Positions 1-33,390 of a stretch of 37,121 bases of DNA are shown here, piece by piece. Made by a program: the position numbers and the translations under genes. Under the pieces are notes generated by a model, which worked only from the letters and a program-made list of their open reading frames with translations, did not search any database and was not told the DNA's origin. Numbering within the stretch: position 1 is the stretch's first letter; every line of letters starts with the position of its first letter. Origin of the DNA: Candidatus Angelobacter sp. (GTDB lineage: Bacteria; Acidobacteriota; Terriglobia; Terriglobales; Acidobacteriaceae); NCBI GenBank assembly GCA_025462835.1, contig JAOAPH010000217.1:1-37121 (forward strand). Direction: 5' to 3'.

Positions 1-167
1 TCTTTCTTGACGTCATCTTGTGCCTTGGGGCTGTACTTGCGCCTGCCGGAGCTCTTCTTGGCCGACGAAGAAGACGAGCGGGAAGAGCTCGACCGCTTTT
101 TTGAACTGGCAGAACGGCTTCGCGAAGAAGCTGATCGCGATGATCTGGACTTCTTGGTTGCTGGCAT
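1..167 (-). CDS. Basic Lys/Ser/Arg-rich protein, DUF6496-like (3' part cut off by window edge)
   Basis: An open frame runs leftward from an ATG at 167 off the window edge and gives 55 residues. The first forty are almost only Ser, Arg, Lys and Ala (MPATKKSRSSRSASSRSRSA and onward), followed by GRRKYSPKAQDDVKK. I associate that ending with the start of the DUF6496 domain, in which a disordered basic arm precedes a short Lys-rich domain. The start is supported by a GGAGGA Shine-Dalgarno sequence at about 176-181, seven to eight bases upstream. Function is unknown. The composition suggests nucleic-acid binding or a histone-like role, but that is inference. The gene is divergent from the response regulator at 413. 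The Ser/Arg repeats make the opposite strand read open, but the minus strand carries the recognisable sequence. Confidence 0.75.
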   Translation of the reverse strand, partial: MPATKKSRSSRSASSRSRSASSKKRSSSSRSSSSSAKKSSGRRKYSPKAQDDVKK

Positions 168-273
168 TTTCGTTTTCCTCCTTGATCGAAATGGCAGCAC
201 TTTTCCGCGCTGCACGTTACTCACCTGCTTGCTTGATGAGACGCGAGCGGAATCGGTGAGGTTGGCAGAAGTC

Positions 274-301
274 CGGGGAGGACAAATGGGAACACTCCCC
301 G
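274..301. repeat. Small inverted repeat in the divergent intergenic region
   Basis: CGGGGAG at 274-280 and CTCCCCG at 295-301 are perfect 7-base inverted copies separated by 14 bases. They lie between the divergent basic-protein gene and the response regulator gene, so they could be an operator or a transcribed hairpin. No T-tract follows on either strand, so it is not a convincing terminator. Confidence 0.4.
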
Positions 302-348
302 ACCCCACCTAAGCAATACCCTTAGCCTTCATTTAGGGTGTCTTTCCA

Positions 349-412: not shown

Positions 413-2155
413 GTGGCCACTAAGATCCTGCTTGCCGATGACAGCATGACCGCCCAGAAAATGGGCAAAGATATCCTGACCGCTGCAGGATACGAAGTAA
501 CCGCCGTGAGCAATGGCGCTGCCGCTTCCAAGAAGCTCGTCGATAAATTCGACCTCATCATCCTTGACGTTTACATGCCCGGATACAGCGGCCTGGAAGT
601 CTGCGAGAAGGTCCGCGCCAACATGGAGATCGCCAAGACTCCAGTGCTGTTGACCGTGGGCAAGATGGAACATTACGAGCCGGCTGACACCCAACGGGTG
701 AAAGCGGATGGCGTGATCATTAAGCCGTTTGAAGCCACTGACCTGCTGGCCGTGGTGAGAAAGCTGGTGGAAAAAGCATCGGCTGCTTCAGCCCCCAAGC
801 AGGAGAAGCCCGATTACGAAAAGACGATGATCTTCACCGCTCCGCAGATCCAGGAGTTCAAGGATCAGAGTTACGCTGAGTGGAAGACTGATGCTCCCGC
901 CGAAGCAGAAGTGGCTGAAGCGCCTGCTGCACCTGCATTTGAGATGACGCACGCCGAAGCCTCTGCGCCCGCGTTTGCCATGGACATGGCTCCCTCGGTT
1001 TCGTCTTTTGATGAGACAGTCAACATTCCGCCTGCGCCGCCAGCGGCAACGTCGTTCGATGAGACCGTGGGATTTTCTCCCTCGGCCCCGGCGATGGATT
1101 TTGGAACCGCCGTGGCTCCGGCGTTCGAGTCGCCAGCAATGGAAGCCGCGCCCGGCTTCGACATGTCTGCGCCCGCAAGTGGTTTTGATATGGCTCCGGT
1201 ACCAGCCATGCCCAGCTTTGAGGAACCGGTTCCGCTGCCAACGCTTGAGCCAACCGTGATGGCCAGCGTCAGCATTGCCGTATCTCTCGACCCGCATCTG
1301 GAAGTTCCAGCGCCGCCGCCCGAAGTAAAGTATTCGATACCTTCACAGGATCCCGCACTCGCCTCCCGAGTTGAGATGGCCAGCGAGGAATTCATCACCA
1401 GGATCGGCGCATCTGAGCCTGAACCCGAGACCGTTCCAGATGCAGCAGCAGACGAAGCCGCGGAACTCGCAGCGGCAGCGGCAGAACTTGCCGGAACTCC
1501 CGCACCAGTCGCGGAAATAGATGACTTCGAGGCCCGCGTGGCCGCCCGAATGTCTGGATTCGAATCAGCCGAACCGGTGCAAGCCATTGAAGCTGAGCCA
1601 GAACCTGAGCCGGTTGTAGCCGCTGAGCCTGAATCGCCGACTTACGAAGATACGCAAAAGCTTGAGGCTGTACCCGATCCGGAACCGATAGAAGTCGCCG
1701 CTGTGATGGATGAAGCGGTAGGGGCAGAGCCGGTGATGGAAGCCGAACCCGCTGCCGAATCGGTTTCTGAATCGCAAGCCCCGCCGGATGGTATGCACGA
1801 TGCCACCCTCGTCGAACAGATGCAAGCTGCGTTTGCTGACCTGCCGGTTGAAACCGCGCCGCACGTAGTGGAAGAACCGATTCCCGTTGCAGAAGCGCCG
1901 GAGCCAGTTATTGCGATGTCAGCGCCCGAAACTCCGGCTGCTGGCGGCCACGACCTGGAACTCGCCTCCGCGCTCGCAGCGGCAATGGGTGGCGAAGCTC
2001 CCGCTCCCGAAGTCATGGCCGCAGCAGCGGCTGCGCCAGCAGCAAGCGGCATGGATCCGCACACCATCGCGCAAGTGGTCACACGCGTGATGGAACGGAT
2101 GCTGCCCGCAGTAATGCATGAGATCGCGAAAGAGCTGGAATCGGCGAAGAAGTAA
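413..2155 (+). CDS. Response regulator with long disordered Ala/Pro/Glu-rich tail
   Basis: Residues 1-120 form a CheY-like receiver domain: acidic pair D9/D10, phospho-acceptor D52 in LIILDVYMPG, T81, and K104 in the IIKPFE motif. No DNA-binding or enzymatic output domain follows. Instead about 430 residues of Ala/Pro/Glu-rich low-complexity sequence lead to a C-terminal amphipathic helix (about 550-580, VVTRVMERMLPAVMHEIAKE). The tail has spaced copies of an aromatic-acidic-x-Thr motif: YEKT (135-138), FDET (199-202 and 215-218) and YEDT (411-414). These resemble phospho-threonine sites bound by FHA domains; that reading is inference. The start is GTG, preceded by GAAGGAT; the nearby ATG at 406 is out of frame. 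The likely role is phosphorelay signalling with a protein-interaction tail. No partner kinase is in the window. It precedes valS, but 260 bases separate them. Confidence 0.85.
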   Translation: MATKILLADDSMTAQKMGKDILTAAGYEVTAVSNGAAASKKLVDKFDLIILDVYMPGYSGLEVCEKVRANMEIAKTPVLLTVGKMEHYEPADTQRVKADGVIIKPFEATDLLAVVRKLVEKASAASAPKQEKPDYEKTMIFTAPQIQEFKDQSYAEWKTDAPAEAEVAEAPAAPAFEMTHAEASAPAFAMDMAPSVSSFDETVNIPPAPPAATSFDETVGFSPSAPAMDFGTAVAPAFESPAMEAAPGFDMSAPASGFDMAPVPAMPSFEEPVPLPTLEPTVMASVSIAVSLDPHLEVPAPPPEVKYSIPSQDPALASRVEMASEEFITRIGASEPEPETVPDAAADEAAELAAAAAELAGTPAPVAEIDDFEARVAARMSGFESAEPVQAIEAEPEPEPVVAAEPESPTYEDTQKLEAVPDPEPIEVAAVMDEAVGAEPVMEAEPAAESVSESQAPPDGMHDATLVEQMQAAFADLPVETAPHVVEEPIPVAEAPEPVIAMSAPETPAAGGHDLELASALAAAMGGEAPAPEVMAAAAAAPAASGMDPHTIAQVVTRVMERMLPAVMHEIAKELESAKK

Positions 2156-2415: not shown

Positions 2416-5172
<2,757 letters not shown>

Positions 5173-31310: not shown

Positions 31311-32672
31311 CTAGAAGGGGATCAGTTTTCTGAGCCCCTTTTTCTTTTTCTGCTTGCTGCTGGACTCCTTATTGTCTTTGCTTTGATCCTGATCTTTTGC
31401 GTCTTTGTTTTGGGCCTGGTCTTTGTTGTCTTTTGTTTGGGTCTTGCCCTGATCTTTAGAGCTCGATTCAGCAGCTCCGCTATCAGTCTTGGGGGAGCTT
31501 TCCACGGCCACATCATTGACTTGGTTCGGCGGAGGTGCTGCCAACTGCGAGCGCGGCACCGGATCGCTTTCCTTTGATGCTCCCGGCTTGATCGTCTCTA
31601 CTGAGGCCTTGCCATCGATGTCCTTAGTCGCCGCCGTCATCAGGTCTTTCATGACTTGGGGCGCGCTGGTCTGCTTGGGTTCTTCGAGCGAAGGTTCACC
31701 AATCTTCACAGCCTGGGCCATATCTGGTCGTTTCTTGAAATTGCCCATGATTACGGCTAGGCGTCCGCTCTGGCTGCGGCTTTCCTCTTCTTTCTTGTTT
31801 TGCGCGATCATCTCCGGAGTAGGCGTCGGGATCGGACGGTGCAAGGCCTGAAGCCGGTTCTTTGCATCTGCTACTCGGTCCATCGCCGGATATCGCGAAA
31901 CGATCTTGGCATAGCTCTCCGCCGCCCGGTTGGTGAGATCGTTGAGGACGTTTGCTTTGGGAGTCTCCTGCAGTTTGCCTGCGCGGATCGTATTTATTTC
32001 GCCCTCGTACGCCTGACCTAGCGTGAACAAGGCTTCGTCGATCTGGCTGTAAAGTGGATAGGCATCCACTAAGGAACGCAGCCGCGCGATAGAGGCTGCA
32101 TAGGACTCGCGCACAAAATAGAAACGGCCAATGCGGTATTCGCGTTCCGCCAAAACTTCCTGTACCTGAAGCAAACGCTGCTTCGCCTCAGGAACGAGCT
32201 TGCTGTCCGGGAACTGCTGGATCAGTTGCCGATACTCATCTTCGGCGCGCTTCGCATGAGTGAAGTCGCGATCCGGCTTTTCCATCTGCTTGTAGTGAAT
32301 GCCCGCAACTTTCAACTGGGCTTCAGCCGCTTCAGGCATGTTGGGAAAGAAGGTGATGAAATCCTTGTATTCCGCCTCAGCCTGTTGCAGAGCGGCGGAA
32401 CTTCCTTCTTCATACCAGGAATCGCCCACTGCAAGCTTGGCGCGCGCGATGTATTCAGAATCCGGATAAGTGTTGATGAGGGTCTGCAGCGTGATCCGCG
32501 CGGTGTCGAATTTGTTGTGTTGCAGGGCATCCATGGAGCGGTCAAAAAGCACTTTGTCGGGCTGCTTGGAATCCACCTGCGCGATCGGATTAACCGCCTT
32601 GTTCTTGCGGCAACCGGCGCCAGCCAATGCAACCACGATCAGCAAAAAAAGAATGAGTGTGCGACGAAACAT
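31311..32672 (-). CDS. bamD: BamD-like outer membrane assembly lipoprotein with charged C-terminal tail
   Basis: A lipoprotein with lipobox LAGAGC (signal MFRRTLILFLLIVVALAGAG, lipidated Cys at about 21). BamD-type tetratricopeptide repeats follow (about 40-265: DKVLFDRSMDALQHNKFDTA, LQTLINTYPDSEYIARAKLA, AEYKDFITFFPNMPEAAEAQ, EYRQLIQQFPDSKLVPEAKQ, and the fifth after YRIGRFYFVRESYAASIA). BamD is part of the BAM complex that inserts beta-barrels into the outer membrane. E. coli BamD has about 245 residues. Here about 190 extra residues follow, ending in a Lys/Asp/Gln/Ser-rich disordered tail and KKKKGLRKLIPF. The ATG at 32672 is preferred over the TTG at 32681. It lies 22 bases after rpe. Confidence 0.88.
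   Translation of the reverse strand: MFRRTLILFLLIVVALAGAGCRKNKAVNPIAQVDSKQPDKVLFDRSMDALQHNKFDTARITLQTLINTYPDSEYIARAKLAVGDSWYEEGSSAALQQAEAEYKDFITFFPNMPEAAEAQLKVAGIHYKQMEKPDRDFTHAKRAEDEYRQLIQQFPDSKLVPEAKQRLLQVQEVLAEREYRIGRFYFVRESYAASIARLRSLVDAYPLYSQIDEALFTLGQAYEGEINTIRAGKLQETPKANVLNDLTNRAAESYAKIVSRYPAMDRVADAKNRLQALHRPIPTPTPEMIAQNKKEEESRSQSGRLAVIMGNFKKRPDMAQAVKIGEPSLEEPKQTSAPQVMKDLMTAATKDIDGKASVETIKPGASKESDPVPRSQLAAPPPNQVNDVAVESSPKTDSGAAESSSKDQGKTQTKDNKDQAQNKDAKDQDQSKDNKESSSKQKKKKGLRKLIPF
31315..31345 (+). terminator. Terminator of clpB overlapping the 3' end of bamD
   Basis: AAGGGGATCAG at 31315-31325 pairs with CTGAGCCCCTT at 31330-31340, with one mismatch and a four-T loop. TTTTT, C and another T run follow on the plus strand. 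It sits 22 bases beyond the clpB stop codon. On the minus strand the same bases encode the last residues of bamD. Confidence 0.75.
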
Positions 32673-32694
32673 GAGAATCAATAACCCCGAATCC

Positions 32695-33390
32695 CTAAAC
32701 TTGTAGCAGATTTGCTTCCCTGCCGGTTTTCAGCAGCCGTTCCGTGTTCTTCCTGGGATCGCCACTCCCGAATACCGCGCTTCCAGCAACGATCACTTCT
32801 GCACCCGCGCGCACCACTTCGGCGATGTTCTCCAGCGTAATCCCGCCATCCACTTCGATCTTAAAGCCGGTGCGCAGCGTTGACTTGATAGCTGCCAGCT
32901 TGCGGATCTTCTCCAAGCATGAGGGAATGAATTTCTGTCCGCCAAATCCCGGGTTCACTGACATCACCAGAACGTAATCCACCATATCCAGCACTTCGGT
33001 CAGCGCCCCAATGGGAGTAGCAGGATTGATCACCACGCCCGCTTTCAGTCCGTGTCCCTTGATGTGCTGCAACACCCGATGCAGGTGAACACAGGCCTCC
33101 TGATGGACAGATATCCAATCCGCGCCAGCATCAGCAAATGCCGGGATGAACTGGTCTGGATCCTCGATCATTAGATGGCAATCTAGAGGGATGTCGCTGA
33201 TGATGGCCTTGCGCAAAGATGCGACTACCGGAGGCCCAATCGTGATGTTAGGAACAAAGTGGCCGTCCATCACATCCACGTGCAACAGGGTGGCTCCGCC
33301 CTCAATGGCCTCCTTGGCGCTGGCGGCCAGACAGGCAAAGTCAGCCGACAAGATGGAAGGCGCGATTTGAATCACGTGGTTATTGGACAA
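32695..33390 (-). CDS. rpe: Ribulose-phosphate 3-epimerase
   Basis: TIM-barrel enzyme of the pentose phosphate pathway that interconverts ribulose 5-phosphate and xylulose 5-phosphate. Motifs: IAPSILSADFACLA, LLHVDVMDGHFVPNITIGP (metal His and catalytic Asp), LDCHLMIEDP, VHQEA, MSVNPGFGGQKFIP and FKIEVDGGITLENI, then IVAGSAVFGSGDP. The 231 residues are slightly longer than usual by about ten at the C-terminus. The start is TTG at 33390; a GTG at 33375 is an alternative. It leads bamD with a short gap, so the two are probably co-transcribed. Confidence 0.96.
   Translation of the reverse strand: MSNNHVIQIAPSILSADFACLAASAKEAIEGGATLLHVDVMDGHFVPNITIGPPVVASLRKAIISDIPLDCHLMIEDPDQFIPAFADAGADWISVHQEACVHLHRVLQHIKGHGLKAGVVINPATPIGALTEVLDMVDYVLVMSVNPGFGGQKFIPSCLEKIRKLAAIKSTLRTGFKIEVDGGITLENIAEVVRAGAEVIVAGSAVFGSGDPRKNTERLLKTGREANLLQV

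Follow-up and report, generated by a model that had tools for sequence, protein, structure and literature searches.

The response regulator encoded near the start of the window (the whole stretch of 37,121 nucleotides analysed here) carries a short motif repeated along its tail, in which the Thr residue is singled out both by enrichment across homologues and by conservation among relatives, and which tends to occur where the genome also encodes a GarA-like FHA protein. The regulator is best described as a putative receiver-domain scaffold whose tail resembles a multivalent FHA ligand. The features of the locus are listed in Table 1.

Table 1. Features of the regulator locus, with positions in the window.
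Feature	Position	Strand	Basis or observation
Response-regulator gene	413..2155	+	ORF, single frame; 580 aa, GTG start; Pfam Response_reg
Receiver domain, residues 1-126	413..790	+	Invariant columns in alignment A2; pLDDT mostly >90
Motif 1, YEKTMIF (T138), receiver-proximal	815..835	+	Thr in all five sequences compared
Segment after motif 1, APQIQEFKDQSYAEWKT	839..889	+	Alignments; AlphaFold2 helix 143-159, modest confidence
Motif 2, FDETVNI (T202)	1007..1027	+	Kept in L073; absent in L075 and L076
Motif 3, FDETVGF (T218)	1055..1075	+	L073 only, among four relatives compared
Motif 4, YEDTQKL (T414)	1643..1663	+	Thr in all five sequences compared
C-terminal helix, residues 549-579	2057..2149	+	Alignment A3 (21 sequences); pLDDT about 87-91
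valS (valyl-tRNA synthetase), downstream neighbour, outside the system	2416..5172	+	Pfam

In the predicted protein a receiver is followed by a tail that is mostly disordered and by a C-terminal helix that is conserved. Pfam recognises the receiver domain alone (PF00072 Response_reg, 4e-17), and the same family was matched in all 38 aligned members of the regulator family. D9, D10, D52 and K104 are invariant across these 38 sequences; following textbook roles, we take D9 and D10 to be the acidic pair and D52 the presumed phosphoacceptor, alongside K104. When the protein was modelled with AlphaFold2 using 38 sequences, the receiver reached a pLDDT of about 90 or more, and most of the Ala/Pro/Glu-rich tail of about 420 residues stayed below 60, with a few short helices of low confidence. 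An earlier note on this DNA, which had described the tail as disordered apart from its motifs, was thus right for most of its length, but other short segments of the tail are conserved and it is not featureless. The closest record, L073, is 90% identical over residues 1-580, and the nearest named records are metagenome-assembled Acidobacteriaceae or Acidobacteriales. At E<=1e-20 we found homologues in 43 of 150 genomes of the order, and in 131 of 397 when a larger set was drawn.

The valS gene lies downstream on the same strand in at least 12 of 42 relatives' loci, where a bamD-like gene was found upstream of the regulator in at least 24 and rpe in 19; the bamD-like and valS counts are lower bounds because the loci were cut and open reading frames were filtered by overlap, and the neighbours were named from the Pfam matches of their window copies. 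In the window itself the bamD-like (YfiO) gene and rpe are at 31311-33390 on the minus strand, about 29 kb from the regulator, so that the gene order looks rearranged in this lineage. At the window's edge (3-308, minus strand) there is a Ser/Arg/Lys-rich open frame which runs off the window and has no Pfam match; by eye it resembles a basic, histone-like tail.

The three-part plan of the regulator is also that of RomR, the polarity response regulator of Myxococcus xanthus, which the available portion of its description gives as a receiver, a lineage-variable unstructured linker and a conserved helical C-terminus, RomR-C, that is Glu-rich with an invariant Trp and Pro (PMC3441718). The same source reports RomR homologues in Acidobacteria, two acidobacterial RomR sequences being without RomR-C (PMC3441718). 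The regulator could accordingly be a RomR-type polarity scaffold acting with MglA and MglB, its tail serving as a localisation linker in which the Thr motifs are incidental, and the shared plan, in which the C-terminal helix often has a Pro, speaks for such a reading. We nevertheless regard it as very unlikely. MglB (PF03259, Robl_LC7) was matched in none of the 33 genomes searched, out of the 43 that carry the regulator, compared with 3 of 14 control genomes, and in alignment A3, which holds 21 of 35 C-terminal sequences, the helix Pro is common without being invariant and the helix Trp occurs in 2 of the 21 (a third helix Trp was seen in G146), RomR-C being taken here from its description (PMC3441718). 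The Thr motifs go unmentioned in the available portion of that paper, and a localisation linker would leave the Thr enrichment described below unexplained. Membership of RomR was rejected on the absence of MglB matches from the 33 genomes searched and the missing RomR-C Trp, and the regulator is therefore not filed under that name.

The earlier note had pointed to four heptads with an aromatic-acidic-x-Thr core, YEKTMIF, FDETVNI, FDETVGF and YEDTQKL, and all four are present in the one frame; to its description we add a hydrophobic residue at +3 as a feature of the motif. The regulator's own tail contains [FY][DE].T five times against 0.17 in shuffled tails, a count reached in none of 1000 shuffles, but this test is post hoc since the pattern was picked on the same protein, and we therefore tested the tails of homologues instead. 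The fifth site, FEMT at 938, lacks the +1 and +3 features. When we compared the protein with its sibling L073, its genus mate G089, L075 and L076, only T138 and T414 among the 20 tail Thr were Thr in all five sequences, that is, 2 of 4 motif Thr and 0 of 16 others, and the contrast that the earlier note had proposed between motif Thr and the rest of the tail is borne out in this comparison. Ser 153, 324 and 381 are also kept in all five, and 135 of 454 tail columns are identical. Elsewhere in the tail, the segments at 1382-1408 (SEEFITRIG) and 1520-1564 (DDFEARVAARMSGFE) are conserved among near relatives.

The individual motifs differ in their histories. The site of motif 4 reads YEDTQKL, YERTQKL or YERTIKI across the compared sequences, and L075 and L076 have a motif 1 without the aromatic residue (EKTVTL) as well as an extra IERTQPI. 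In the place of motif 2, G089 has TDETAGF, in which the Thr is retained and the motif degraded. Judging from these alignments, the FDETV copies (motifs 2 and 3) are young or lineage-specific and are not conserved beyond the sibling of about 90% identity. Such turnover around a kept core would be the usual behaviour of multivalent linear motifs.

Across homologues the pattern [DE].?T[VIMLQ].[ILF] occurs 33 times in 39 of the 43 tails (our own protein, the genus mate G089 and the near-copies G005 and G021 being left out), against 6.2 expected, and none of 300 shuffles was as high. When Thr was replaced in the pattern, the same 39 tails gave 9 occurrences for Ser (8.3 expected) and 20 for Ala (21.7 expected), and the Val, Gly, Pro, Glu and Gln versions all fell inside the shuffle range. 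In 38 tails from FHA-bearing genomes, leaving out our own, G089 and G374, the Thr motif was found 54 times against 7.7 in shuffles and the Ser version 9 times against 8.6, whereas in 82 tails from genomes lacking the FHA gene the Thr count of 21 was inside the shuffle range (13.5 expected).

Anchoring the search on the upstream residues gave a similar picture. In FHA-bearing genomes, with our own protein excluded and its genus mates included, [FY][DE].T is followed by I, L or F at +3 in 20 of 29 sites (background 0.10) and by V, I, M, L or Q at +1 in 26 of 29 (background 0.22), while [FY][DE].S is followed by I, L or F at +3 in 0 of 13. The 14 [FY][DE].T sites in the 82 FHA-negative tails have the same tendency (6/14 at +3 and 10/14 at +1). 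The commonest residues over the 33 proximal sites, our own included, are Y-E-K-T-V-K-L, and in homologues the motif narrows to [YF]-E-[KR]-T-[VIMQ]-x-[LIF]. Taken at the level of protein sequence, the signal is Thr-specific, with a conserved acidic residue at -2 and a hydrophobic one at +3.

A tail so rich in Ala, Pro and Glu could in principle generate motifs of this kind by composition, and shuffled tails do yield 6 to 8 look-alikes per data set. We find this hardly credible as the explanation, given that the excess is five- to seven-fold and restricted to Thr, that T138 and T414 are conserved, and that the Ser, Ala and Val versions and the flanking-ORF control are flat, the Thr pattern occurring 64 times against 60.4 expected in 318 non-regulator flanking ORFs from the homologue loci and the window; the artefact was rejected on these controls. 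The lack of enrichment of the Ser, Ala and Val versions also bears on the proposal of a short linear motif that some other folded partner recognises independently of phosphorylation, for example through beta-strand addition followed by a short helix. Hydrophobic residues at +1 and +3 are typical of strand addition; both are present in the regulator motif, and a conserved helix-like segment follows motif 1. A restriction to Thr is nonetheless hard to explain without Thr phosphorylation, and we consider such a motif improbable.

As a separate observation, the aromatic Ser pattern is in excess in the flanking ORFs (16 against 2.4). We also searched eight genomes at the DNA level with a strict pattern, Y-E-x-T-[VIM]-[KR-like]-[IL-like], which does not fit the window protein's own motifs, and obtained 13 matches (control 4), of which three were in regulator tails (two in G110 and one in G064). 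The other ten were in other open frames, by eye none of them in a comparable disordered signalling tail, and thus this search of eight genomes found no wider client set.

The motif co-distributes with the FHA gene. Of 150 genomes, 22 were found to have the FHA protein; each of these is one of the 43 that carry the regulator, and the 107 genomes lacking the regulator gave no match. In a count of 123 homologues the proximal motif is present in 33 of 41 from FHA-positive genomes and in 10 of 82 from FHA-negative ones (Fisher p 7.5e-14); the occurrence among homologues on which the earlier note had made its interpretation depend is found on the FHA-positive side, the proximal motif being absent from 72 of the 82 FHA-negative homologues. 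At least one motif copy was found in 33/41 against 20/82, eight of the 41 FHA-positive homologues being without any copy, and two or more copies in 17/41 against 1/82. Regulators from genomes without the FHA gene mostly lack the motifs and retain the receiver and the C-terminal helix. The Ser control gave no such association for at least one copy (6/41 against 18/82, Fisher p 0.47), but at the proximal site it also leans towards FHA-positive genomes (8/41 against 3/82, Fisher p 0.0063), and part of the proximal signal may for this reason be compositional.

These counts refer to the 131 regulator-bearing genomes less eight: G294, whose sequence was missing from the set; G211, G319, G271, G168 and G235, whose gene is near a contig end by coordinates (G271 may be complete); G390, a fragmentary genome with two matches; and G361, whose match resembles the second G347 match. 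A genome was scored as FHA-negative when no match reached E<=1e-10, the assemblies being of varying completeness. G003, with a partial match in a 956-aa frame, and G374, with a 56-residue piece at a contig end, were counted as FHA-positive, and G292 and G360, whose tails run off the stretch taken, were still counted.

The raw association is strong, but it is confounded by descent, FHA presence being clustered on the receiver tree. In phylogenetically independent pairs the average number in which the motif goes with FHA exceeds the number in which it goes against it, in no case significantly. With 43 rows (3 pairs), at least one copy goes with FHA in 1.6 pairs and against it in 0.0, and the proximal site in 1.7 and 0.0; with 123 rows (6 pairs), the averages are 3.0 and 0.0 for the presence of any copy, and 1.4 and 0.4 for the proximal site. 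The independent evolutionary events are too few for significance, and the association between motif and FHA gene is suggestive and not proof.

Ser/Thr kinases, which the earlier note had called abundant in this phylum, account for 27 Pkinase matches in the organism's own assembly, which is 83.6% complete and also has five FHA matches, some of the matches being cut by contig ends. The motif Thr could be kinase substrates forming a local phospho-switch, for example for the activity of the receiver, for dimerisation or for scaffold assembly, with no FHA reader at all. The position of the proximal motif close behind the receiver would suit such a switch, and so would the upstream acidic and +3 hydrophobic residues, which also fit mycobacterial phosphosites (PMC7164672). 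In the available part of that work, the logo of the sites lost on PknA depletion is acidic at -1, from -3 to -6 and at +7; it shows Pro at both -1 and +2, Leu or Val at +3 and basic residues at +4 (PMC7164672). The fit to the regulator motif is partial, the logo being without an acidic -2, and it counts for the reading with an FHA domain as well. Kinase preference alone would leave unexplained why the motifs are concentrated in genomes with the FHA gene, a correlation that is itself confounded by descent, and we judge a switch without a reader to be unlikely.

If the tail is read by an FHA domain, the most likely reader, on the features of its sequence, is a GarA-like FHA protein (C8, L079:2572-3342; FHA Pfam E 9.5e-23) whose gene directly follows a PP2C gene, which in turn is preceded by a kinase gene; the regulator (C97) and this FHA operon (C8) are on separate contigs. 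In a fold search the top entries were GarA (7rj3) and GarA complexes, with EmbR, FhaA, OdhI and DgcB lower down. R27, S41, H44 and N63 do not vary among 21 orthologues, and we take the Arg, Ser and Asn to be the phosphothreonine-binding residues, as in textbook FHA domains. Of 20 relatives, 18 have a PP2C-like ORF in the stretch of about 5.5 kb that surrounds the FHA gene (none in G070 and G014). The neighbouring kinase has GETMIFGG and DSTVMV ahead of its kinase domain, and three relatives have segments like these. The stretches taken contained this kinase in just 4 of 21 genomes (our own, G022, G012 and G140), and for this reason we do not name it as the writer. A scan of viral contigs with the FHA protein found no relative. 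Of the other FHA-match proteins, L078, L081 and L082 have what by eye look like nucleotide cyclase-like domains, and L078 and L081 adjoin a Hanks kinase gene.

The linker of the FHA protein holds KMEATMVLDTKKAKEM, and a similar Thr motif is found in 19 of the 21 orthologues, G110 having Ser and G064 lacking the segment. AlphaFold2 models the FHA domain, and linker residues 98-118 have a pLDDT below 50, which leaves the linker motif at low confidence; the models of the FHA protein and of the regulator showed no sign of docking. The protein is possibly a GarA-like self-inhibited switch, associated with PP2C, in the Acidobacteriota. A strict profile shared by the linker and the regulator tail was tried and rejected: when a position matrix built from 20 linker segments was scanned over 43 regulator tails, 3 tails had a match at p<=0.01 with the 9-residue matrix and 1 with the 14-residue one, and the hits fall away from the proximal motif. 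The linker profile thus fails to transfer, and the resemblance between linker and regulator is at the level of pattern only. The linker is itself well kept, as T-[MV]-[VM]-L-D-T, and at about 160-255 the FHA protein has a second, beta-rich C-terminal region, for which Pfam gives ThiS below the cut-off only.

The available text describes the known FHA ligands GarA, OdhI and DgcB as hydrophobic at -3, +2 and +3, with Glu in position -2 and Ser in position +1 (PMC6733907). The regulator motif shares with them the hydrophobic -3, Glu -2, the Thr and the hydrophobic +3, and motif 1 (Y E K T M I F), like the FHA linker (M E A T M V L), has all the features except Ser +1; the commoner form in homologues, with Lys or Arg at +2 in place of a hydrophobic residue, fits less well (PMC6733907). 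The earlier view of the motifs as FHA docking sites is therefore partly supported: the Thr-specific enrichment and the GarA/OdhI/DgcB-like residues at -3, -2 and +3 agree with it, as does the conservation of T138 and T414, and the unshared Ser +1, the failure of the linker profile, the low confidence of the modelled linker, the absence of the proximal motif from most FHA-negative homologues and the lack of significance in independent pairs do not. The likeness to GarA and OdhI extends to the candidate reader, whose FHA fold matches GarA best and whose own linker has a similar motif; the difference is that here the motif, known from sequence alone, is found also on a separate receiver-domain protein and in several copies.

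In mycobacteria, according to the accessible part of a review, phosphorylation of a kinase juxtamembrane segment recruits FhaA (PMC12189002). The likeness would be a phosphorylated segment outside the kinase domain to which an FHA protein is recruited, as is proposed for the regulator tail. The difference is in the carrier, which is a kinase there and a response regulator here. The Ser/Thr kinase PrkC reportedly acts on the WalRK two-component system, and CovR, GraR and DevR are further two-component regulators under Ser/Thr kinase control. The regulator would resemble them in being part of a two-component system acted on by a Ser/Thr kinase; their known sites, however, are in or near the receiver or the DNA-binding domain, whereas here we propose a multivalent tail with an FHA domain as its reader. 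Among the titles and abstract openings covered on FHA domains together with response regulators or two-component systems, none reports a response regulator whose tail is bound by an FHA domain.

Our leading explanation is that the regulator acts as a receiver-domain scaffold whose disordered tail would present several Thr motifs (Y/hydrophobic-E-x-T-hydrophobic/Q-x-L/I/F). A Hanks-type Ser/Thr kinase would phosphorylate the motif Thr, an FHA domain, probably that of the GarA-like protein beside PP2C, would bind the phosphothreonine with the help of the +3 hydrophobic residue, and the PP2C phosphatase would reset it; we weigh this written, read and reset scaffold at about even. The C-terminal helix may be a dimerisation or localisation element. 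The FHA groove may be contested between the regulator tail and the FHA protein's own linker motif, much as GarA and OdhI bind themselves, and aspartyl phosphorylation of the receiver would then be integrated with Thr phosphorylation of the tail on one polypeptide. The full version, in which FHA occupancy would add up the histidine-kinase and Hanks-kinase signals as the multivalent scaffold competes with the linker, we put forward more tentatively.

Most of the known cross-talk between two-component systems and Hanks-type kinases consists of a kinase modifying the receiver or the DNA-binding domain. Our analysis suggests that this regulator links two signalling systems that are normally separate, and it narrows the question to one testable reader among five FHA matches and to two key Thr out of twenty, with a predicted preference for Thr over Ser. 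If the reading is true, a string of FHA-type Thr motifs serving as an output region would be a direct physical junction of both systems, and it would suggest a function for regulators of the Acidobacteriota that have no recognised output domain.
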